DNA of 64,000 bases from Arsukibacterium perlucidum DSM 18276 (GTDB lineage Bacteria; Pseudomonadota; Gammaproteobacteria; Enterobacterales; Alteromonadaceae): assembly GCF_000382165.1 (NCBI RefSeq), contig NZ_KB907703.1:186001-250000 (forward strand). The letters run 5' to 3'. Position 1 is the first letter of the stretch. Every line of letters begins with the position of its first letter. Below, piece after piece: positions 50,169-64,000 of the stretch. A program made the position numbers and the translations under genes. The notes under the pieces are model-generated. The model saw only the letters and a program-made list of their open reading frames with translations. It searched no databases and was not told where the DNA came from.

Positions 50169-52789
<2,621 letters not shown>

Positions 52790-52790
<1 letters not shown>

Positions 52791-53854
52791 TACCACTCCA
52801 CAGAAAAGGCTTCAAGGCCGGCTAAGTTAAAACTATGGTCCGCTGCTTTGGGCTGGCGCGGCGGCGCATCTTTTACCGCATCTGCTATGGCTTTGATATG
52901 TTCGGGCGTGGTGCCACAGCAACCGCCAACAATATTGAGAAAGCCCTGCGCTGCCCAATCGGCAATTTCAGCGGCCATCTCTGCTGCGCCTAAATCATAC
53001 TCACCAAATTCATTTGGCAGGCCGGCATTCGGGTGCACCGATACATAAGCTTCTGACACACCGGATAAGGTTTCGACGTATGGCCGCAATAAATCCGGGC
53101 CCAGGGCGCAGTTCAGGCCAAAACATACCGGCTCAACATGAGCCAGGCTATGGTAAAAGGCTTCAGTCGTCTGGCCAGATAAGGTGCGGCCGGACGCATC
53201 CGTAATGGTACCTGAGATCATCACCGGTAATTTAAAGCCTGCTTCATCAAATACTTTTAACACGGCAAAAGCCGCCGCTTTGGCGTTTAAGGTATCGAAG
53301 ATAGTTTCCAGCATTATAATGTCGGCACCGCCTTCGATTAAGGCATGGGTTGATTCAGTGTAAGCCTCAACCAGTTCATCAAAGCTGACATTACGAAAGC
53401 CCGGGTCATTTACATCGGGCGATATCGACGCCGTACGGTTAGTGGGCCCTAATACGCCGGCGACAAAGCGTGGTTTATCCGGCTCAAGTGCTGTCACTTC
53501 ATCACAGACTTTCCGCGCTATCGCTGCGGCTTCGCGGTTAATCCGGGCCGATAAGCCTTCCATCTGATAGTCAGCCATAGCAATGGTCGTGGCATTAAAA
53601 CTGTTGGTTTCAACAATATCAGCGCCGGCCAGCAGGTATTGGCGGTGAATATCAGCTATCAGATCTGGCTGGCTTAGCACCAGTAAGTCATTATTACCTT
53701 TAACATCACACGGCCAGTTGGCAAACTCAGCGCCGCGATAGTCGGCTTCCTCCAGCCGATGCTGCTGGATCATGGTGCCCATAGCGCCATCCAGGACCAG
53801 AATCCGTGCCGCCAGTATTTGCCGAAATTGCGCTGGAGTAAGTCTTGCAGTCAT
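52790..53854 (-). CDS. metH: Methionine synthase, separate homocysteine-binding domain
   Basis: The 354-residue protein is the N-terminal homocysteine S-methyltransferase domain of MetH as its own gene. [19 protein letters not shown] opens the barrel, and the zinc cysteines are in FGLNCALGP and [10 protein letters not shown]. It ends at [12 protein letters not shown], exactly where E. coli MetH has the linker to the folate domain. ATG 53854 is chosen over an upstream in-frame start because AAAGAG lies in front of it and it matches family N-termini. It follows metA by 34 bp. Confidence 0.93.
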
Positions 53855-53888
53855 ATCATGCTCTTTAATTGTAATCTGTCTGATTTGC

Positions 53889-54815
53889 TTATGCCGGGTG
53901 GCCAATTTGCTGCAGCTCAAACGGCGTTGCCTGATAAACATAATAGTTCAGCCAGTTGCTGAACAATAAAAAGGCATGGCTTTGCCACAGTTTTTGCGGC
54001 CCCTGCAATGGGTCGTTATTACGATAATAGTTTTCAGGTAACCTGGGCCTGGCGCCAGCGGCAATATCGCGCTGATACTCTTCATCCAGGGTAGTTAAAT
54101 CATACTCCGGATGGCCGGTAACAAACACCCGGCTGCCACTGCTGTTCTGCAGCAAATAGGCCCCGGTAACATCGGCTTCGGCCAGAATATGTAAATCATC
54201 ATGTTGCTGATACTTTTGTTTCGGCACCTGAGCATAGCGCGAGTGTGGCACTAAAAACTCTTCATCAAAACCGCGCACCAGTGGGCTCAATGGCTGGCTA
54301 ACCTGCTGCCAGTACACACCAGACAATTTCTCACCCCGAATTTCCCGTTGCAAACCATAGTACTGATACAGCGCGGCATGGGCCGCCCAGCATAAAAATA
54401 AAGTAGAAGTTACGTTGTTGTCGGCCCAGCGCAAAATATCACCAAACTGGTTCCAGTAAGTGACATCCTCATAATCGACCAGCCCCAGCGGGGCGCCGGT
54501 AATAATCAGGCCATCATACTTTTGCTGCTGTACCTCAGAAAAGTAACGGTAAAAGCAGTTCAGGTGGCTGGGTGGGGTGTTTTTACTGACATGGTCGTCA
54601 ATCCGCAGTAAATCAATATCCACCTGCAACGGGCTGTTCGCCAATAAGCGCAGCAGCTGAACTTCAGTAGCAATTTTATTGGGCATCAGGTTTAAAATGG
54701 CAATTTTCAGCGGCCGGATATCCTGTGATTGCGCCCGGCTTTCGGTCATCACAAACACATTTTCTGCCGACAAGGCTTCAACCGCCGGCAACTGATCGAT
54801 CACTTTGATAGGCAT
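53889..54815 (-). CDS. metA: Homoserine O-acyltransferase MetA
   Basis: MetA acylates homoserine (usually with succinyl-CoA in gammaproteobacteria), the first step of methionine synthesis from homoserine. The protein starts at ATG 54815 ([15 protein letters not shown]). Catalytic residues are in [12 protein letters not shown] (Cys nucleophile) and [14 protein letters not shown] (His, Glu). Whether it uses succinyl- or acetyl-CoA depends on one active-site residue that I did not resolve. It leads the operon metA-metH(N)-metH(C), joining both ends of methionine synthesis under one control region. Confidence 0.95.
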
Positions 54816-55211: not shown

Positions 55212-55370
55212 GGTGTATTAAATCTGTCACCACAGAGGTAATAGCGCAAGATAATAAGCCGGCGGGTTTTGCTTGATAAAAAGTGGGGCAACATTCTGCT
55301 GTACATCAGCAACGGTTCTATTGTAAGTTTATTCGTCATTTCTTATATTGTGCAAGGAGCACCAACCTCT

Positions 55371-56171
55371 ATGCGGCTACTGGCAGTGTTATTGCTGTTA
55401 TCTATTGGACGCGTTGCCAGTGCTGGTGAGACCACAAGCTGTACCCTGCGGATGGCGGTGGAAACTGATTTCCCGCCGCATATTGTCAAACAGTCAGAGC
55501 AGTGGACCGGACTCAGTATTGAGCTGATGCAACGCCTTGCCGCTGAAGTTAACTGTCAACTGGTGTTCATTAATACTCCCTGGCTGCGTTCATTACAACT
55601 TAGTGAACAAGGCCGCTTAGATGTACTTAGCCATTTATCCTTTAATCAACAACGCCGCAGTCAGTTTGCTTTTATTGGTCCTCATCATATTGAAAGCATT
55701 TATTTAGTAGGTAATCCAAAACTATCGCCTAAGCTTTATAATCTGCAACAATTGGCGGATGGTATTGATCTTGGAAGTATCGCTACCCTGCACGGGGCTT
55801 ATTATGGCGAAGAGTTTGAACAGCTTACTCTTAACGCCAGTTTTGCTAATCAATTAGTCAGTATCAGTAGTATTCAAGACAAACTGGCTTTACTGCGTGC
55901 GGGCAGAGTAAAAGTAATTTTAGAAGATCTCAGTGTCGTCAGATATTGGCAACAGCATCAGTACGATGCCGCTGAACAGTTTCAACCCCTGCTTAAAGTA
56001 TATGAAAGCCCGGTTTATTTTGGTTTTAGTAAAACCTCATTATCAGCTGAACGCTTAAATGAGCTGGCTAATGCCTGGCAGCACTTACATCAGCAGGGCA
56101 AACTCACTGCGATCTACCAAAAATACCAACTAAGCATCGAACCTAACTTAGCACCAGACTCCAGACTTTAA
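55371..56171 (+). CDS. Orphan periplasmic solute-binding protein, paralogue 1
   Basis: The ATG at 55371 is chosen: AAGGAG lies 11 bp upstream and a signal peptide (LLAVLLLLSIGRVASA) follows at once; the frame itself is open from 55269. The mature part is a type 3 binding fold with LRMAVETDFPPHIVK, GLSIELMQRLAAEV, FAFIGPHHIES, HGAYYGEEF and ILEDLSVVRYWQ. It is closely similar to the protein encoded at 57370, on the far side of apbE. No permease or ATPase genes accompany either copy. Confidence 0.85.
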   Translation: MRLLAVLLLLSIGRVASAGETTSCTLRMAVETDFPPHIVKQSEQWTGLSIELMQRLAAEVNCQLVFINTPWLRSLQLSEQGRLDVLSHLSFNQQRRSQFAFIGPHHIESIYLVGNPKLSPKLYNLQQLADGIDLGSIATLHGAYYGEEFEQLTLNASFANQLVSISSIQDKLALLRAGRVKVILEDLSVVRYWQQHQYDAAEQFQPLLKVYESPVYFGFSKTSLSAERLNELANAWQHLHQQGKLTAIYQKYQLSIEPNLAPDSRL

Positions 56172-56250: not shown

Positions 56251-57249
56251 ATGACTTCTATGACTCGCTTGTTTTCTGCCAGCAAAAGCTGGTTTAGCTC
56301 CCTGCTCAGCGTAAGTTGCTTATTGCTGGCACTGCCCGCTTACGCCGAATGGCAACGGCTGCCATTTCAAACCATGGGTACTCAGGCTTATGTCGAGCTG
56401 TGGGCAGAAGATGACACGCTGGGCAAAAATCTGCTTAATGCTGTGCAAAACGAATTTGAACGGATTAACCAACTAATGAGCCCCTACCTTGCCAGCAGTG
56501 AGCTGAGTTTGCTTAACCGCGAAGCGGCCGCTGACCCGGTTACTGTCAGTGCTGAGCTGTACCAGTTACTACAACAGGCAGAGCAGTTAGCAAAGCTCAG
56601 TGATGGCGCCTTTGATATCAGCTTCGCTTCAGTCGGTTTTAGCTACGATTACCGGCAACAGATTAAACCCAGCGCCACTGAGTTAGCCCGCCAGCAACCT
56701 TTGATAAATTATCAACATATTCAATTACTGGCGGACAATCAGGTTAAATTTAGCAGGCCGGGGGTGAAAATTGATTTAGGTGGCATCGCCAAGGGCTATG
56801 CCGTCGAGCAGGCCATTGGTCTGCTGGCTGAAGCCGGTATTAAACATGCGCTGGTTACCGCCGGTGGTGATACCCGGCTGCTTGGCGATAAGCGTGGCCG
56901 GCCCTGGCTGGTAGCCATTAAGCACCCACGTAAAGACGATGATATCGTGGCGCAATTGCCATTAACCAACAGCGCCATCAGCACCTCTGGTGATTACGAG
57001 CGGTTTTTTATTGAAGACGGTGTGCGCTATCACCACATTTTAGACCCGAAAAGTGGCCAGAGCCCGTCGGGCCTAATGAGCGTAACGGTGCTGGGGCCTG
57101 ACACTACCCTTACTGACGCGCTGTCGACTACGTTATTTGTGATGGGGTTGCAGCGCGGTATGGCATTTATCGAGCAACAGGCAGAATTTGAAGCGATCTT
57201 TATCAGCAGCGAACATCAGTTATATTTTTCATCCGGCCTGGCCCAATAA
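56251..57249 (+). CDS. apbE: FAD:protein FMN transferase ApbE
   Basis: ApbE attaches FMN covalently to threonine residues of exported flavoproteins such as RnfG and NqrC. The 332-residue precursor has a signal peptide (LLSVSCLLLALPAYA), then FQTMGTQAYVELW, KIDLGGIAKGYAVEQA (the FAD/metal region), ALVTAGGDTRLLG and HHILDPKSGQSPSG. The metal-binding DALSTTLFVMG is present near the end. Neither nqr nor rnf genes lie in the window; instead the gene is framed by two paralogous binding proteins. Confidence 0.94.
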   Translation: MTSMTRLFSASKSWFSSLLSVSCLLLALPAYAEWQRLPFQTMGTQAYVELWAEDDTLGKNLLNAVQNEFERINQLMSPYLASSELSLLNREAAADPVTVSAELYQLLQQAEQLAKLSDGAFDISFASVGFSYDYRQQIKPSATELARQQPLINYQHIQLLADNQVKFSRPGVKIDLGGIAKGYAVEQAIGLLAEAGIKHALVTAGGDTRLLGDKRGRPWLVAIKHPRKDDDIVAQLPLTNSAISTSGDYERFFIEDGVRYHHILDPKSGQSPSGLMSVTVLGPDTTLTDALSTTLFVMGLQRGMAFIEQQAEFEAIFISSEHQLYFSSGLAQ

Positions 57250-57369: not shown

Positions 57370-58182
57370 ATGTCGAGAGTTGTGTTACAGTTTGTGATTA
57401 ACAGCAGTATATTGTTGCTGTTCTGGCTACCTCAGGCGTTAGCCTGCCATTTACGTTTTGGGGTCGAAACTCACTTTCCACCCCATATTATAAAAACCGA
57501 AACAGGCTGGAGCGGTCTTAGTGTCGAGCTTGCTCAGCGCCTGGCCAAGGAAGTAGACTGCGAAATCACCCTGATTGAAGGCCCCTGGTTACGGGCTATG
57601 CGCCAGATTGATAAAGGCGAGCTGGACTTAGTTAGTCACCTGACATTTAGTGCCGCTCGGCAGCAACACTTCGCTTTTATAGGTCCACATCATCTCGAGC
57701 AAATTTTTTTAGTAGCCGATCCCGCCGCCATCCCGGTACTTAGCTCAGTAGAACAATTGGCCAACGAGATTGATCTTACGGCCATTGCTATGCTCGATGG
57801 CGCTTACTACGGCGAAGACTTTGCCAGGCTGCAGGCTCAGCCCGGGCTGAAAAGGCAACTGGTTTATATTAACAATAATCTGGATAAGATAGCATTGCTC
57901 AATGCCGGGAGGGTCAATGCAGTGCTGGAAGATTTATCGGTGCTGCGCTACTGGCAAAAGCAAGATACCAATACCTCAATCCGCTACCAACCTTTACTGG
58001 CCATTCATAAAGGCCCGGTGTATTTCGGTTTTAATAAAAAAACCCTCTCTCCGGCCCAACTTCAGCAACTTAATAGTGCCTGGCAAAAGCTCCACACCAA
58101 TGGCGAACTGGCCAGCATTGTTGCCCGTTATCAGCAAGCTGACAACGAACTTAATCTGCCAGCCCCCCAACCGCATCTGTAA
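57370..58182 (+). CDS. Orphan periplasmic solute-binding protein, paralogue 2
   Basis: The 270-residue protein has a signal peptide (SSILLLFWLPQALA) and the same motif series as the protein at 55371: LRFGVETHFPPHIIK, GLSVELAQRLAKEV, FAFIGPHHLEQ, DGAYYGEDF and VLEDLSVLRYWQ. By eye about half of the aligned residues agree over the whole mature length, so the pair arose by duplication. The ligand is unknown. TTGGAAA precedes the ATG. It converges with the DUF1501-like gene, with 43 bp between stops. Confidence 0.85.
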   Translation: MSRVVLQFVINSSILLLFWLPQALACHLRFGVETHFPPHIIKTETGWSGLSVELAQRLAKEVDCEITLIEGPWLRAMRQIDKGELDLVSHLTFSAARQQHFAFIGPHHLEQIFLVADPAAIPVLSSVEQLANEIDLTAIAMLDGAYYGEDFARLQAQPGLKRQLVYINNNLDKIALLNAGRVNAVLEDLSVLRYWQKQDTNTSIRYQPLLAIHKGPVYFGFNKKTLSPAQLQQLNSAWQKLHTNGELASIVARYQQADNELNLPAPQPHL

Positions 58183-58225: not shown

Positions 58226-59803
58226 TTAAACAATAGGCGCAAACGCCGTTAATCTGTCCTGACTTGCGGCATTACCCAGGCCGTGAAATGGTGCTACTTC
58301 AGCCAACCTGCCTTGTTCGCCGTGCAACGCCAGGTAATTCAGCAGTACCGTTTGTACCAGCAGGTTAACGTTATTGGCCGCCATAGATGAGCCGGTTTCT
58401 ACCGATGCATCCGGACGCATAAAGCCAATTTGCTGATGACGGGCCTGCTCAGCCGTGCTGCCACCCAGTAATGCAGGCCGGCCATTCGGGTTATATACCA
58501 GAATGGCTGAGGCGGCAGTGGAAGAGTTGTCACCGGTCCACTCCCCTTTGCCGCGGCCATTTTCACTGTCGTCAATCCGGCCATTACTGCTCACCGAACC
58601 ATCAGAATATAAATAAATCATCAGTGGCTGATTGCGCCGGGCGGCGTATTCCAGGCAGGCGCCAATACAGCGGCCAGCGCGCAAATCACGCAGCTCGCCG
58701 GTACCCCGCTCGCCGGTATGATAATCATAGCCGCCAATCGTCACTGTGCCGGCACCGGCAAAGCCATTTACTACCAGCTTCATTACAGATGCCGTTTTTC
58801 TAAACTCAGCATCACTGTTAAATTCTGCGCTGCTGAAAATGCCACCATCGCCCACAATATCCGGGTCGGCCGCCGGATCAAGTGTGGCCGGGTTACCAAA
58901 GCGATCAGCTAAATCGGCGCTTTTCACATAACCACAACGCACCAGATCTTTAATCACGGCATCGCGGCTAACAGCACTGTTTACCCTGGCCAGTTTATTG
59001 TCACTTAAGCGCTGAATAGATTCCATTACCGCCACGGCGTCATTTTGATCCAACAAACCGAATAAATCACCGACATCCACCAGACCAGTGACATCACTTG
59101 GCCGGTCAATTTTAGTTGGCCGCCACTCCGGATTATAGAATTCGGCCGGCGCCATTGAGTTGGCACCAGAATCTGAGTTGCGGGAGCCAATCAGTGGCAT
59201 CAGGGAACCATTAGCGCCTGCTTTAGCAATGGCATACATCGGGTTATGTGGATTGTTGCCGGTGTCGTTTTCTGAACGCGACGGCATAACAGCACCATTG
59301 GTCATGGCCTGGGTGGCCATGCTGGTGCGCTCAAGAATACCCGCCAGCATTTGCGAGTCACTGTGAAAAGCCAGCCCCAGCTGGTCGTTGACAAAACCAC
59401 CGGCCGGATTAGCGGCATTCACCGCTGTCGGTACCATATCGGCTGGCAAGCCCAGTTTGCTATAGCCCTGGGTCGACAAAAAATCGAGCTGACCAGCGGC
59501 ACCGCCCACCAGAATATTGGAACCGGCAATATTAGCCCCACCGGCTAAATCAAAGCAGATAAACGGAATTTTACCGGCCCCTTCGACGTTAATGCCACAC
59601 TGGGCTTTTAGCAACTCCAGATCAGGCGATAAGTCAGCAAAGGCTTTGGTAGGGTTAGCAAATAAGCTGAATACCGAGCCGGTGGTCAGGATGCCCGCCC
59701 CGACACTCAGGCCGCAGGCAATAAAGTCGCGCCGGGTCACCGGCCGGCTATGGCAGGCGTGCAGTAAGGGCGCATCCGGGTGTAAGGCTTTTTTCAGTTT
59801 CAT
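58226..59803 (-). CDS. Tat-exported DUF1501-like protein
   Basis: The 525-residue protein has a twin-arginine signal (VTRRDFIACGLSVGAGI, RR at 24-25), so it is exported folded. The body is rich in Gly, Ala and Asn, with FICFDLAGGANIAGSN, NPHNPMYAIAKAGA and GGYDYHTGERGTGELRDLR. It recalls DUF1501-type secreted proteins of the sulfatase/phosphatase superfamily, often paired with cytochrome-like partners, but I see no complete catalytic set, so the family call is tentative. GAGGAG precedes the ATG. It follows the CxxCH/LamG lipoprotein gene by 65 bp. Confidence 0.6.
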   Translation of the reverse strand: MKLKKALHPDAPLLHACHSRPVTRRDFIACGLSVGAGILTTGSVFSLFANPTKAFADLSPDLELLKAQCGINVEGAGKIPFICFDLAGGANIAGSNILVGGAAGQLDFLSTQGYSKLGLPADMVPTAVNAANPAGGFVNDQLGLAFHSDSQMLAGILERTSMATQAMTNGAVMPSRSENDTGNNPHNPMYAIAKAGANGSLMPLIGSRNSDSGANSMAPAEFYNPEWRPTKIDRPSDVTGLVDVGDLFGLLDQNDAVAVMESIQRLSDNKLARVNSAVSRDAVIKDLVRCGYVKSADLADRFGNPATLDPAADPDIVGDGGIFSSAEFNSDAEFRKTASVMKLVVNGFAGAGTVTIGGYDYHTGERGTGELRDLRAGRCIGACLEYAARRNQPLMIYLYSDGSVSSNGRIDDSENGRGKGEWTGDNSSTAASAILVYNPNGRPALLGGSTAEQARHQQIGFMRPDASVETGSSMAANNVNLLVQTVLLNYLALHGEQGRLAEVAPFHGLGNAASQDRLTAFAPIV

Positions 59804-59817
59804 CGTTGGCTCCTCAA

Positions 59818-59886
59818 TACACTAGCAAGAGTACACTAGCAATAGTGCGCTGGCATTAGTCTCTGACATTAGTACACCAGCATCTG
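59818..59886. repeat. Degenerate 14-bp tandem repeat, five units
   Basis: Units TACACTAGCAAGAG, TACACTAGCAATAG, TGCGCTGGCATTAG, TCTCTGACATTAG and TACACCAGCATCTG follow one another (one is 13 bp). The array starts between the two genes and runs into the last codons of the lipoprotein gene at 59869. Confidence 0.7.
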
Positions 59887-62289
59887 GGCACTGGCCAGCA
59901 CGGCTGTGCAGGCTGCTTTGGCAATGGTTTGAGTACGCTGACTATCGCAAGCACCGTTGCATTGGCTTAAGCGGTCTAGCAGATTATTCAGCTCCGCTCT
60001 GGCGTCAGTTTCGTCCAGCGAAGTAGCAGGCTGCAACGGCGCAAACCTGGCCAACAAGGGGCTGATTAAGTCATCACGGTTAGCCGGGCTTAATGCCTCG
60101 GCCGGGCTGGCATTAAAATTAAGCGCCGGAAACCATTCGCTGCGCAGCACAGAATCATTTATCGCGGCATTGCAATAGGCAATTCCCAGTTGGGTAATCG
60201 CCATTTGCTGGGCTGAAATAAAGGTTTCAATATTGCTGGTTGCCGGCAACTGCCGGGAAATAGTCTGGTAGATGTTTGCTACAGCCGGTGTCGCCTGCGA
60301 CACGCCGGTTAGCTGGCTCATGCTGGCATGAATAGCTGCAAAAGGCCGGATGCCGATGTCACTGCTGTTCGAGTTAGCCTGGCTAACCTGTTGAACCGGA
60401 AATACCGGCTGACTGCGGACATTGCTATATTGGCCAATCTGGCCGAAAGACAGAAAAAACTCATCTGTTGCCGCACCGGCTTCGGTCGCGATAACTGTTC
60501 CCAGCGCAGACAGCTGCACCGGTTCAGTCAGGTTAGTGCCACTGGCAAAGCTGAACGCCTGGCTGATCCACGCCTGGCCAGCACTGATTTCACGGCCATT
60601 AATCGCCAGCGCCATCTCGCTGATCGTTAAATCGGCGGGCAGTGCGGCCCCATCCAGATTAATTAAGTATGGCTGGCTGAACAGGTAGGAGTAATTATCA
60701 AACTGCGCCACCTCAAATACAATATAGCTTTGTGGCAGGTCAATTAAATGACCAATCGCAAACGGCAGATAAAACTTCTGGCCCACCCCGATACTAAAAT
60801 TCTGCGCGACCTGTGCCGGAGTCAGCGCACGGTTATGAATAGCCAGTAAACGCACACTACCCTGCCACTGCCGGCTGCCATCGGCCTCGTTGCCCAGCAT
60901 CAGCGCAAAACTGTTGTCCCAGTTGCTTATTGCTGTCCCTTGGCTTTGTACCCCACTGTCTTCGCCATTAACATAAATCCGTTGGCCATTCACCGGGTCC
61001 TGGGTCAGCACTACGTGCTGCAGACTGGCTTGTAATAACTCGTCGGCATCGGCGGTACTGAGCGCCGGCATACCGGCAAAATCGCTACTGGCGTTGCGTA
61101 ACAGAAAGTCGTAATTATACTGGCTCTGGCCGAGGGTGAAATTGCGACTGATAGCGCTGCCGGCATAACTGACAATCGCAGCCGGCCCTTCCTGCACCAC
61201 ATTCGCCGGTATTACCCAGGCTTCTATAGTCATTTCGCCGGTGGCACCGATTAGCGTGGCCAGTTTCGCACTACTCTGGGTACTGGCCTGTGCCCGGCCA
61301 CTGTTAATCTGCAAGCCCCAACCGGTTAACCAGGCGAAATCACCCTGTAAGGTTAAGTTCGCGGCAGGCTCAACCCCGGAGGTATCAAAAGCCTGATTAC
61401 CCTCACCTTCTTTAAACTGGTAAAAGGCAATCTGGTTACTCTCATAACGCCCGCCACTGGAGGCAACCACGCCATCCTCCAGCCTTAGGGCTTTGGACGG
61501 AATCAGTTGCGGATCCAACTCTGTCACTGGCACCGCGTCACTTATTGCCGTTACTGCCGCCAGCATTGCCGCTGCATCGTTACTGCAATCTGACCAGCAG
61601 TTATGAAACTCACCAGCTAAGCGGGCGACCAGCCTGGATAACTCCGGCCGGTCCAGATTAATTAAATTGCGGCTGGCCTGATAGGCCACATCAAGATCAC
61701 TGGCAGCAAAAAAAGGTGCCTGGGCAACCGCCGCATCAGGTGCATGACAGCTGGCACAATATTGGCGCAGCAACGGATACACTTCAGCGCCAAATAAAGC
61801 TGAACTCTCTGGCAGCGCTTTGCTGGCACCCGGGTCACGGATCACCGGTGCCACCAGCGTTACCGCTGCCTGCTCAGCACCTGTCGTATCGCCCCAGTTG
61901 CGCAACCACTGCGTAATAGTGTCAGCACAGGCAGTATTGCTGCTAAGCCAGCAGTTATGACCGCCGGCGACTTTCTGCACCATCAGCGATTGTGCCGGAT
62001 CGGCTAAATTAACCAGCGGTAATACCGCAGAATACGCCAGATTAATGTCATCACGCCGCACAAAAAACGGCGCGGTATTGCCCTGCTGATGGCAACTGCC
62101 ACAGCGGTTATCCGCCACCAGATTATCCCAAAGATTTAACTTAAATTGCTGCACATCGGCAGTTTGCGGCGCCGGACCAGCATAGTTATTAGAGTTATCC
62201 TGAACCGGTGGTGGCGGGTTTTGTTCTACCTCGGCACCACCACAACCTACCAGCACCAGACTCAATACAGCCAGCAGTAATATTCGCAT
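59869..62289 (-). CDS. Lipoprotein with two CxxCH modules and a LamG-like domain
   Basis: From ATG 62289 (GGGGGAG upstream) the 806-residue protein has a lipobox (LVLVGCGG, Cys16). Two duplicated modules follow, each with a c-haem motif and a downstream HNCW: CGSCH at 63-67 with HNCW at 111-114, and CASCH at 178-182 with HNCW at 229-232. APFF and a DxxxAY segment recur between them. Residues about 280-500 look like a LamG/concanavalin-type jelly roll (IEAWVIPANVV, VNGEDSGVQSQ). The C-terminal 300 residues are unassigned. It is probably a surface or periplasmic redox lipoprotein; the function is unknown. Confidence 0.75.
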   Translation of the reverse strand: MRILLLAVLSLVLVGCGGAEVEQNPPPPVQDNSNNYAGPAPQTADVQQFKLNLWDNLVADNRCGSCHQQGNTAPFFVRRDDINLAYSAVLPLVNLADPAQSLMVQKVAGGHNCWLSSNTACADTITQWLRNWGDTTGAEQAAVTLVAPVIRDPGASKALPESSALFGAEVYPLLRQYCASCHAPDAAVAQAPFFAASDLDVAYQASRNLINLDRPELSRLVARLAGEFHNCWSDCSNDAAAMLAAVTAISDAVPVTELDPQLIPSKALRLEDGVVASSGGRYESNQIAFYQFKEGEGNQAFDTSGVEPAANLTLQGDFAWLTGWGLQINSGRAQASTQSSAKLATLIGATGEMTIEAWVIPANVVQEGPAAIVSYAGSAISRNFTLGQSQYNYDFLLRNASSDFAGMPALSTADADELLQASLQHVVLTQDPVNGQRIYVNGEDSGVQSQGTAISNWDNSFALMLGNEADGSRQWQGSVRLLAIHNRALTPAQVAQNFSIGVGQKFYLPFAIGHLIDLPQSYIVFEVAQFDNYSYLFSQPYLINLDGAALPADLTISEMALAINGREISAGQAWISQAFSFASGTNLTEPVQLSALGTVIATEAGAATDEFFLSFGQIGQYSNVRSQPVFPVQQVSQANSNSSDIGIRPFAAIHASMSQLTGVSQATPAVANIYQTISRQLPATSNIETFISAQQMAITQLGIAYCNAAINDSVLRSEWFPALNFNASPAEALSPANRDDLISPLLARFAPLQPATSLDETDARAELNNLLDRLSQCNGACDSQRTQTIAKAACTAVLASAQMLVY

Positions 62290-62291
62290 GC

Positions 62292-63518
62292 TTACTCCCC
62301 CATACAATAGGTGGCGGTGTCGGCGAACACCTGCTTTAAGTTATAACCGCTCTGGCTGAACCGGTCACTTGTTTGCTGGATCAGATTAACATCAGCCAGG
62401 GTTTCCGGTGGCCGTAAACAGGTTGCTGCAAAGGCTTTTTTAACCTGGCATTGGGCAAAAGCAACCGAATGCGCCAATTCCTGACCTAAGCTTTTTGCGC
62501 CATGGCCCTCGCCCGGTAAACTGCTATCCCAGCCCAATGCCTGGTTCTGGCCCTGGCGCCAATAGTTTTGCCAGTGATCATCTGCTGTTTTAAAGCCAAA
62601 CGGAAAGTTACCGGCGTTAATATGGTATTTCGGCTGCACCCGGCTGCCGGTTTGATTGTTAGAGCTGCCGGTTTGCTGATAAAACAGCCGGCCGTTGTCG
62701 CCACTCTCGTCAGTAAACTGGTAGTCGTAATAAGCAAAAGCCTGAGCCAGCGGATCCATCCCCGCATGACAACCCAGACAACGGTTATGAAAAATCCGGC
62801 TGTCACCGCCAGGGCTGCGACTAACATCCTGGCGGATCCGATCGGCAGGCGTGCTGCTGTCTTTTAACGGTTCAAGGTCAGTACAAAGCTGGCTCATTAA
62901 GGTGAAGCGGAGCATGGCCCGGTTGGTGCCCAGATAAAAAAACGCTTTAGCACCGGCCCGGCTGGTCATCACACCCGCACTGGCCTCGAACGGGATCCCG
63001 AGCAGGCTACTTTGGGAGCGGGGTTCCAGATACTGCTGTAAATCAACACCCTGCTGCTCCAGCGCCTGATAGTGAGCATTGTTATCAGCAGCATAGGCTG
63101 GCAAACCTAAACTATCGGCCCCAACATACAACACATCGGTTTGCAAAATTTGCCGGAAATCTGCGTTATCCCTGACCAAACCAATAATCGTCGCGCTGTA
63201 GTCATTCAACGGTTCAAAAATATCCAGGTCGCGGTTAGTCGCCGGCGCGGCAAATAATTTTAAGGTCGTCCGATAAAAATCCGGATGTTGCATCGCCAGA
63301 TCAGCCGCTGCGCCGGCATTGCCCTGGGCGATTAAATCTGCCATCTGTTGCAGGGTAACCGCATCAGCCGGCACACCTGCCAGCCGGTCGTGCAAGCGTT
63401 TCGCCTGCTCCAGTGGCCCGGCTGCCAGGGCGCCACTAAACACCAAGGCGCCACTAAACAATAGTGCAACTGCAGCTAACAGCAGGCCTGGTGCCGGCGG
63501 TTTCAGATAGCTTTGCAT
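62292..63518 (-). CDS. Secreted protein with one CxxCH motif
   Basis: ATG 63518 (AGGAGAG upstream) gives a 408-residue precursor with a signal peptide containing a duplicated FSGAL. A single c-haem motif CLGCH at 247-251 is followed by AGMDPLAQAFAYYDYQF, the form seen in DUF1588/DUF1585-type cytochrome-like proteins in which the motif follows a helical domain. Further cysteines lie near the C-terminus (QCQVKKAFAATCLRPP, TYCMGE). The stop is immediately before the lipoprotein start, so both are made together. Haem binding is inferred from the motif. Confidence 0.72.
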   Translation of the reverse strand: MQSYLKPPAPGLLLAAVALLFSGALVFSGALAAGPLEQAKRLHDRLAGVPADAVTLQQMADLIAQGNAGAAADLAMQHPDFYRTTLKLFAAPATNRDLDIFEPLNDYSATIIGLVRDNADFRQILQTDVLYVGADSLGLPAYAADNNAHYQALEQQGVDLQQYLEPRSQSSLLGIPFEASAGVMTSRAGAKAFFYLGTNRAMLRFTLMSQLCTDLEPLKDSSTPADRIRQDVSRSPGGDSRIFHNRCLGCHAGMDPLAQAFAYYDYQFTDESGDNGRLFYQQTGSSNNQTGSRVQPKYHINAGNFPFGFKTADDHWQNYWRQGQNQALGWDSSLPGEGHGAKSLGQELAHSVAFAQCQVKKAFAATCLRPPETLADVNLIQQTSDRFSQSGYNLKQVFADTATYCMGE

Positions 63519-63535
63519 ATTTCTCTCCTGCCCGG

Positions 63536-64000
63536 CTAGCCGGGTAAAAACGCGATGGTCCACTTCGAACGGGTTGGCGATACGTCGGCCGCGCCGAAAT
63601 TCACCGCCTGTAAGCGCAGCATTAACTGGCGCTCCAGCCGCTCATCATTTAATTCACTTTCAACAATATTTACCTGCTGCATGCTGCCGTCCGGGTTTAT
63701 TATCAGCTCAAACACTACCTTACCTTTTAGCAACGGATTTGCCCGCAAGGCCCGGTTATACAGGGTGTACAAACTGCTTTTATTGGCTTCCAGGGTTTGG
63801 CGGATACTGGCTTCAGAGCGTCCGCCCTGTGCTGCCGCCTCGCTGTTTGCCGCACTGCCTGAACTGGAGTTTGCCGGTGCAGCCGACGCCAGCCCCCTAA
63901 GTTCAGCATCTGCCAGGCTGATACTTTCGGCCCGGTTTAAATCAGCCCGCGCTACATCAGCGCTGACCGGCGCCGCCGCTTTGGCTGCGGTTTTTGCAAG
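63536..64000 (-). CDS. AgmX/PglI C-terminal domain protein, 5' part missing
   Basis: The frame is open to the window edge, so the N-terminus is missing (154 residues visible). The visible part starts with an Ala-rich linker and ends in an AgmX/PglI (TonB-like) C-terminal domain: IRQTLEANKSSLYTLYNRALR, KGKVVFELIINPDGSMQQV and FLPG. Such proteins are periplasm-spanning and related to energy transducers or gliding and export complexes. It is the first visible gene of the operon with the CxxCH proteins, 17 bp before the next start. Confidence 0.72.
   Translation of the reverse strand, partial: LAKTAAKAAAPVSADVARADLNRAESISLADAELRGLASAAPANSSSGSAANSEAAAQGGRSEASIRQTLEANKSSLYTLYNRALRANPLLKGKVVFELIINPDGSMQQVNIVESELNDERLERQLMLRLQAVNFGAADVSPTRSKWTIAFLPG

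Follow-up and report, generated by a model that had tools for sequence, protein, structure and literature searches.

What four closely packed genes for exported proteins are doing at the end of one stretch of DNA from Arsukibacterium perlucidum DSM 18276, and whether they form a system by themselves, is the question addressed here. The stretch analyzed (the window) comprises 64,000 nucleotides (contig NZ_KB907703.1, positions 186,001 to 250,000) and ends in a minus-strand run encoding a TonB-like protein, a PSCyt-like cytochrome candidate, a LamG lipoprotein and a DUF1501-like protein. An earlier note, made from the sequence alone, had regarded this run as a complete surface redox or polymer-processing system. 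Its description of exported products, redox features and a conserved system of surface type holds at the level of sequence, but the run is not complete: it closes, at the 3′ end, a conserved locus of about nineteen genes that occurs in marine and related bacteria. The locus very probably encodes one system in which a proton motor, a flavin module and a haem module are joined.

The four open reading frames (ORFs) and the intergenic gaps first described were confirmed (Table 1): 17 bp separate the stop of the TonB-like gene from the start of the PSCyt-like gene, 2 bp separate the latter from the LamG gene and 65 bp lie between the LamG and DUF1501-like genes. The TonB-like gene crosses the window edge, its last 154 codons lying inside, and the whole protein has 311 amino acids (aa; L002:6536-7471). 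Genes outside the window were read from stretches L002 and L083. Upstream of the TonB-like gene, on the same minus strand, are two ExbD genes, ExbB, p126 (126 aa) and genes for a TPR lipoprotein and a 958-aa TPR protein; still farther upstream are genes for a 650-aa protein, p176 (176 aa), DUF3570, DUF4266 and TlpA, and the upstream end of the locus encodes a 210-aa protein, a 236-aa SH3 plus barrel protein and an 869-aa HZS-alpha-like lipoprotein. The nine genes of the core follow the order p176-TPR618-TPR958-TPRlipo-p126-ExbB-ExbD-ExbD-TonB. Promoter and terminator scans gave signals no better than those of shuffled sequences.

Conservation of the locus was followed through relatives of the DUF1501-like protein obtained from a species-genome scan, the best 80 of at least 563 being analyzed; the Arsukibacterium indicum counterpart is 97% identical. 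In 78 of the 80 relatives the PSCyt-like, LamG and DUF1501-like genes (the trio) stand in the same order and on the same strand, and the remaining two loci lie at contig ends. The trio is thus not scattered over unrelated contexts, the finding that had been named as a refutation of the four-gene proposal, whereas the motor core does stand alone in other genomes. The expected neighborhood of all four genes also survives only in part, as only the own genome and the nearest kin have the TonB-like gene next to the trio (these kin are L003-L018, of which 15 are named Arsukibacterium or Rheinheimera and one is a metagenome-assembled genome, MAG). Outside these kin the core, where seen, sits on another side of the locus; the TonB-like gene was seen beside the trio because in the own genome and the nearest kin the trio ends the core operon.

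Genes for the HZS-alpha-like protein and DUF3570 are present in 62 and 60 of the 80 stretches, respectively. The 16 stretches of the nearest kin lack both, probably because these genes lie beyond the 10-kb flank, as they do in the own genome, and most of the other stretches without them are short contigs. In the 62 stretches that hold it, the HZS-alpha-like gene is divergent from the trio and is usually followed by the genes for the SH3-barrel protein, OMP210, TlpA, DUF4266 and DUF3570. In Microbulbifer and a Sedimenticola MAG the core comes after the DUF1501-like gene, apbE standing ahead of it or behind it; in genome G122 (L120), of the same family as the own genome, the core comes after DUF3570. 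The apbE gene, present in 50 of the 80 stretches, adjoins the first core gene in L154, L169, L171, L177 and L178 and is one gene off in L147. Genera of the relatives with named strains include Shewanella, Colwellia, Alteromonas, Rheinheimera and Microbulbifer.

Joint presence was assessed in a draw of 223 gammaproteobacterial genomes covering 191 genera and about 150 family labels. HZS-alpha-like matches had to reach E 1e-50 (33 of 36 genomes kept) and GltD-like TPR matches to exceed 200 bits (54 of 198 genomes kept), since the latter profile also matches ordinary TPR proteins. Score and profile coverage were used to sort the DUF3570 proteins by hand into two groups, a system type present in 35 genomes and a strong class present in 36, small fragments and G119 being excluded. 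The DUF1501-like protein occurs in 32 genomes, 29 of which also encode the HZS-alpha-like protein, 30 the GltD-like TPR protein and 28 the system-type DUF3570 (Fisher p 9e-29, 4e-20 and 7e-25, respectively, with ancestry ignored). The system-type DUF3570 accompanies the HZS-alpha-like protein in 31 of 33 genomes (30 within 30 kb) and is itself accompanied by the GltD-like TPR protein in all 35 (27 within 30 kb). Joint presence holds even where the genes lie on separate contigs (e.g., G065, G149, G161), and the strong-class DUF3570 is never found less than 30 kb from the other system genes. Among 397 genomes drawn from the phylum, 8 encode the DUF1501-like protein and 11 match the HZS-alpha-like profile (E 1e-30), all of them inside the class.

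The gene named TonB-like in the earlier note does encode the AgmX/PglI C-terminal domain then suggested (NF033768, 56.6 bits; cut-off 40). The neighboring products are of ExbB/TolQ type (PF01618, 2e-28) and, twice, of ExbD/TolR type (PF02472, 3.7e-13 and 8e-14), the three genes being adjacent in L002. By these matches the TonB-like protein is part of a motor core of Agl/Glt-like type, together with ExbB and two ExbD. A TonB-dependent uptake system was considered and rejected: the Pfam scans of locus proteins recognized no TonB-dependent receptor, and the own protein ends in an AgmX/PglI-type domain, TonB_C remaining below its Pfam cut-off there. The core resembles the Agl/Glt core complex and the Glt/Nfs systems of Myxococcus in its ExbB-type protein, two ExbD-type proteins, AgmX/GltG-type domain, TPR proteins and clustering, and also in standing alone in some genomes; AglRQS with GltD, E, G and C were described as a gammaproteobacterial core complex without an assigned function (Luciano 2011; PMC3169522). 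The present core differs in the addition of flavin, haem and DUF1501-like modules and in the scores of the full-length models, which are far below cut-off: the GltG model gives the TonB-like protein 33.9 of 650 bits, and the GltE model (NF033758; 5.9e-5 for the own TPR lipoprotein, 1.4e-10 in L120) stays under its 225-bit cut-off, with other TPR models scoring equally or better. No GltD-named model was among the matches.

Linkage of the core to its motor genes varies. ExbB lies in the stretch for 23 of 36 linked cores, and one cannot be judged; linked cores devoid of ExbB/ExbD are those of L158, L161, L163, L165, L167, L181, L182, L186, L061, L072, L078 and L156. A second core with ExbB is present in seven of the nine whole genomes concerned (G184, G070, G111, G067, G182, G176, G057; not G052 and G173). 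By analogy with Agl-Nfs, two cores may share one motor; Nfs of Myxococcus is reported to work with the Agl motor (PMC3858216).

Four proteins of the locus, DUF3570 (PF12094, 131 bits), DUF4266 (PF14086), an AhpC-TSA/Redoxin protein (TlpA) and ApbE, score above their Pfam cut-offs and correspond to a flavinylation set. Meheust 2021 (PMC8238504) reports ApbE-dependent attachment of flavin mononucleotide (FMN) to DUF3570 at two [ST]GA[ST] motifs and clusters of ApbE, DUF3570, thioredoxin and DUF4266, whose function is given there as uncertain. The own DUF3570 carries SGAS at 124-127, and the apbE product likely modifies this protein. Throughout 61 loci (L002-L082, own included) the site reads SGAS in 26, TGAS in 1, SSAS in 30, TSAS in 3 and SAAS in 1. 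The likeness to the published set is limited in that the own protein is of a weaker subtype (131 bits against 528 for a stand-alone copy on contig C4), one motif is seen rather than two, the second site reading TAS, SAS or similar without Gly, and motor and haem modules are added; several stand-alone DUF3570 proteins likewise show a single motif match. The C-terminal end of DUF4266 is CGCN in 62/62 sequences. Outer-membrane barrels commonly end in Phe, and so do DUF3570, the 236-aa protein and the 210-aa protein (62/62 in the 210-aa family).

The strong-class DUF3570 stands with DUF4266 and mostly also with TlpA and apbE; contig C4 of the own genome carries such a second, stand-alone TlpA-DUF4266-DUF3570-apbE module (L115:8827-11753). 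Genome G008 encodes on one strand apbE, a true PSCyt3, a true DUF1501, TlpA, DUF4266 and a DUF3570 with two canonical motifs, and a true DUF1501 gene is adjacent or one gene off in 7 of 16 strong-DUF3570 loci examined, five of which (L110-L113, L121) had been chosen for a nearby DUF1501, so that 2 of the other 11 had one. That DUF3570 is paired with DUF1501/PSCyt genes is independently supported by G008 and these neighbors. A one-strand run of the same six families at L110:3281-10098, with no motor gene in the stretch, is possibly a minimal version of the system.

The haem module is represented by proteins whose CxxCH motifs, as first noticed for the CLGCH (PSCyt-like) and LamG proteins, proved invariant in alignments restricted to sequences of at least 85% of the median length. 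The single motif of the PSCyt-like protein is present in 79/79 rows and both motifs of the LamG protein in 77/77; the CxxCH columns of the HZS-alpha-like protein, two of which occur in the own sequence, are invariant in 60 rows. All three may bind haem covalently. The PSCyt-like protein falls below the gathering cut-offs of PSCyt3 (PF07627, 13.9 of 27 bits) and PSD2 (PF07624, 19.1 of 25.8 bits), and aligns by hhalign with six genuine PSCyt3 proteins at probability 95 and E 2.6e-8 (94.5 and 8.3e-8 over 295 columns with corrected starts). The suspected planctomycete connection of this protein is, on profile comparison, a real if distant homology. A search of the PDB with its profile gave five matches of E 0.17 or worse, to short C-x-x-C stretches, and a fold search with its model (pLDDT 82.7; residues 233-268 around the CxxCH below 50) found nothing, the best E being 4.0.

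The LamG domain of the lipoprotein is above the Pfam cut-off (PF13385, 3.1e-20); a PDB sequence search with the single protein gave no match, and the nearest solved chains to the domain are sialidase pieces of 194-197 residues (E 4e-4). The 869-aa protein comprises PD40 and HZS_alpha domains (PF18582, 48.6 bits against a cut-off of 26.6). Its profile matches hydrazine synthase alpha (5c2v, E 1.2e-15), while the single sequence retrieved antibody chains only from the PDB. Propeller, middle and C-terminal segments follow one order in both proteins and both have two CxxCH. The present protein differs as a predicted lipoprotein of gammaproteobacteria, and no beta or gamma partner was recognized in the genes scanned, no genome search for HzsB/C having been made. 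HZS_alpha-domain relatives (L083:3755-6364 and kin) occur in 33/223 gammaproteobacterial genomes; a 2025 survey of anammox evolution, with stricter or different criteria, names a few obligate anaerobes and, in its main text, no gammaproteobacteria (PMC12758564).

The DUF1501-like protein, described in the earlier note as a Tat substrate of DUF1501-like type, carries a Tat-type RRxF motif (regular expression) in 78 of 81 family members, which agrees with predicted Tat export. Of the family assignment only the fold class stands. No useful Pfam or NCBIfam match was found, PF07394 (DUF1501) finds nothing in the own genome even at E 10, and a PDB search with the profile gave no match; hhalign against 15 true DUF1501 proteins gives a weak result (probability 3, E 0.014), the best HMM E among the 81 relatives being 0.017, and there is no clear link in sequence to DUF1501. 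The AlphaFold2 model (pLDDT 68, pTM 0.74) superposes on alkaline phosphatase 3q3q with a VIA-align Z of 11.2 over 248 residues (77-523; root-mean-square deviation 4.9), and phosphatases, sulfatases, NPPs and iPGM make up most of the 50 VIA-align rows. Foldseek lists sulfatases, phosphoethanolamine transferases, lipoteichoic-acid synthases, alkaline phosphatases and iPGM at the top. D85, D360, H362, D401 and H494 are invariant in 43 rows. An alkaline-phosphatase-superfamily fold is predicted from the model.

Planctomycete-type PSCyt/PSD proteins have DUF1501 partners, and here as well a PSCyt-like protein stands beside a DUF1501-like one. PSCyt proteins that carry LamG-type domains have also been described, with no function attributed to them (He 2017; PMC5615132). 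A plain DUF1501/planctomycete pair was nevertheless rejected as a description of the locus, as Pfam puts neither protein above cut-off. The weak DUF1501 sequence link and the added motor core are further differences from the planctomycete type.

Table 1. Features of the locus inside the window (positions count from the first nucleotide of the window).
Feature	Position	Strand	Remarks
DUF1501-like protein	58226..59803	-	525 aa; Tat export predicted; alkaline-phosphatase-superfamily fold predicted
LamG (PF13385) lipoprotein	59869..62289	-	two invariant CxxCH
PSCyt3/PSD2-like exported protein	62292..63518	-	one invariant CxxCH
AgmX/PglI (TonB-like) protein, C-terminal half	63536..64000	-	final motor-core gene
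apbE (FAD:protein FMN transferase)	56251..57249	+	convergent to the four-gene run; PF02424 4.6e-82

Two plus-strand genes for SBP_bac_3 (periplasmic binding) proteins flank apbE (window 55269-56171 and 57370-58182), and related genes are found near apbE again in most loci of the nearest kin. Farther away, overlapping ORFs at 50169-52796 and 52790-53941, encoding parts of 875 and 383 aa, indicate a split gene or a frameshift in what looks like methionine synthase (metH).

The order of the modules, the conservation of the trio, the co-occurrence, the position of apbE by the core, the HZS_alpha match, the alkaline-phosphatase fold, the invariant CxxCH and the CGCN end, together with the published DUF3570 flavinylation by ApbE (PMC8238504) and core complex with an Agl-type motor (PMC3169522), lead us to read the locus as a surface redox machine that is coupled to a motor and acts on an external substrate, probably a glycan-like one. 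That the modules belong to one system is the firm part of this proposal; the full mechanism is tentative, with a chance somewhat short of even. According to it, the ExbB-ExbD-ExbD proton channel and the AgmX/TonB-like transducer would constitute the motor, and the core TPR proteins would reach towards the outer membrane. ApbE would attach FMN to DUF3570, a presumed outer-membrane barrel, while TlpA and the CxC protein DUF4266 would handle thiol electrons. At the surface, the HZS-alpha-like and LamG lipoproteins, loaded with haem, would assemble into a complex with the PSCyt-like and DUF1501-like proteins and with two small barrels presumed to lie in the outer membrane. Drawing on the proton gradient, the motor would apply force to this redox complex or gate it, LamG would bind a glycan-type substrate, the DUF1501-like protein would cleave or bind ester groups, and the haem and flavin proteins would oxidize or reduce the substrate.

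Several observations weigh against such a machine. The core also occurs alone, in other surroundings, in genomes devoid of a system-type DUF3570 or a DUF1501-like gene, and 12 of the 36 linked cores, two of which share one sequence, have no nearby ExbB despite at least 4.7 kb covered downstream. A tree of the large TPR protein (74 rows, L078 and L156 being identical; a quick method with SH-aLRT support only and labels of linked, unlinked and alone set by hand) mixes linked and stand-alone cores: the linked label changes 12 times, at least 6 of the changes being forced by well-supported branches, compared with 24.9 in shuffles. Because of this mixing and the stand-alone cores, the joining of core and redox genes has been either repeated or often undone; both histories fit a functional link, and a single origin is not shown. 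The partners are also not strictly inseparable. The HZS-alpha-like protein occurs without the DUF1501-like one in 4/33 genomes of the gammaproteobacterial draw and in 3 of the 11 of the phylum draw, and the DUF1501-like protein lacks the HZS-alpha-like protein in 3/32, the core in 2/32 and the system-type DUF3570 in 4/32 (G001 and G059, among the genomes with such losses, are fragmentary); the Fisher values, moreover, take no account of ancestry. The canonical [ST]GA[ST] motif is present in only 27 of the 61 DUF3570 proteins, the other 34 having [ST]SAS (33) or SAAS (1). Foldseek E-values are 0.055 or worse, so that the fold match of the DUF1501-like protein depends on VIA-align, and no substrate-specific gene was recognized among the genes of the locus.

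Part of this evidence would suit other explanations. That separate modules merely lie side by side, their joint presence reflecting shared ancestry of some gammaproteobacteria, agrees with the separate occurrence of the motor core and the DUF3570 module and with the mixing in the TPR tree; it is quite improbable in view of the conservation in 80 loci and of a co-occurrence that extends across contigs in a draw of so many family labels. A flavin module next to several CxxCH proteins, with 210-aa and SH3 proteins that look barrel-like by their final Phe, could also constitute an outer-membrane electron conduit, in which the flavinylated DUF3570 barrel and the haem lipoproteins would link the periplasm to an external acceptor or donor (metal, humic matter) and the core would only assemble or position them. 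An iron transporter gene in 25 DUF3570-type clusters points the same way (Meheust 2021; PMC8238504). However, the CxxCH motifs, one or two a protein and far apart, are unlike those of multihaem wires, the LamG and alkaline-phosphatase-fold proteins point to substrate handling and no membrane quinol oxidoreductase was recognized among the genes scanned, which makes a conduit unlikely.

The motor-less linked cores, with a second full core in seven of nine whole genomes, recall the use of the Agl motor by Nfs and favor a builder of surface polymer like that of Myxococcus, in which the core would move or secrete a polymer and the haem and flavin proteins would cross-link or modify it oxidatively as it emerges. 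Nfs and Glt are indeed held to share a core of this kind as their origin and to act on a sugar polymer (PMC3858216; PMC3169522). Here, however, no glycosyltransferase or polymer synthesis gene was recognized among the genes scanned, and a polymer builder is likewise an unlikely explanation. The motor-coupled redox machine is thus retained as the preferred, if tentative, reading. Its boldest form, a new class of energized surface enzyme in which an Agl/Glt-type proton motor drives or gates an outer-membrane flavin-haem oxidoreductase, is conceivable though rather doubtful; the parts proposed for that oxidoreductase are the HZS-alpha relative, LamG, PSCyt-type haem proteins and the alkaline-phosphatase-fold protein.

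The earlier note could match its genes to no described pathway. That remains true of the union of both modules with haem genes, which was not found among the open papers listed in the searches (subscription papers and supplements not covered), but two of the modules are already published, each without a function: the Agl/Glt core (Luciano 2011) and, for flavinylation, the DUF3570-DUF4266-thioredoxin-ApbE set (Meheust 2021). HZS-alpha-type proteins are now placed in 33 of 223 gammaproteobacterial genomes, and two published gene sets of unknown function appear as parts of one conserved system in many genera. Since both sets stand in one system and named strains are available, both functions can be tested by simple deletions. 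If the energized surface enzyme proposed here proves true, it would assign a function to the orphan core complex and also to the DUF3570 flavoprotein, likewise an orphan.

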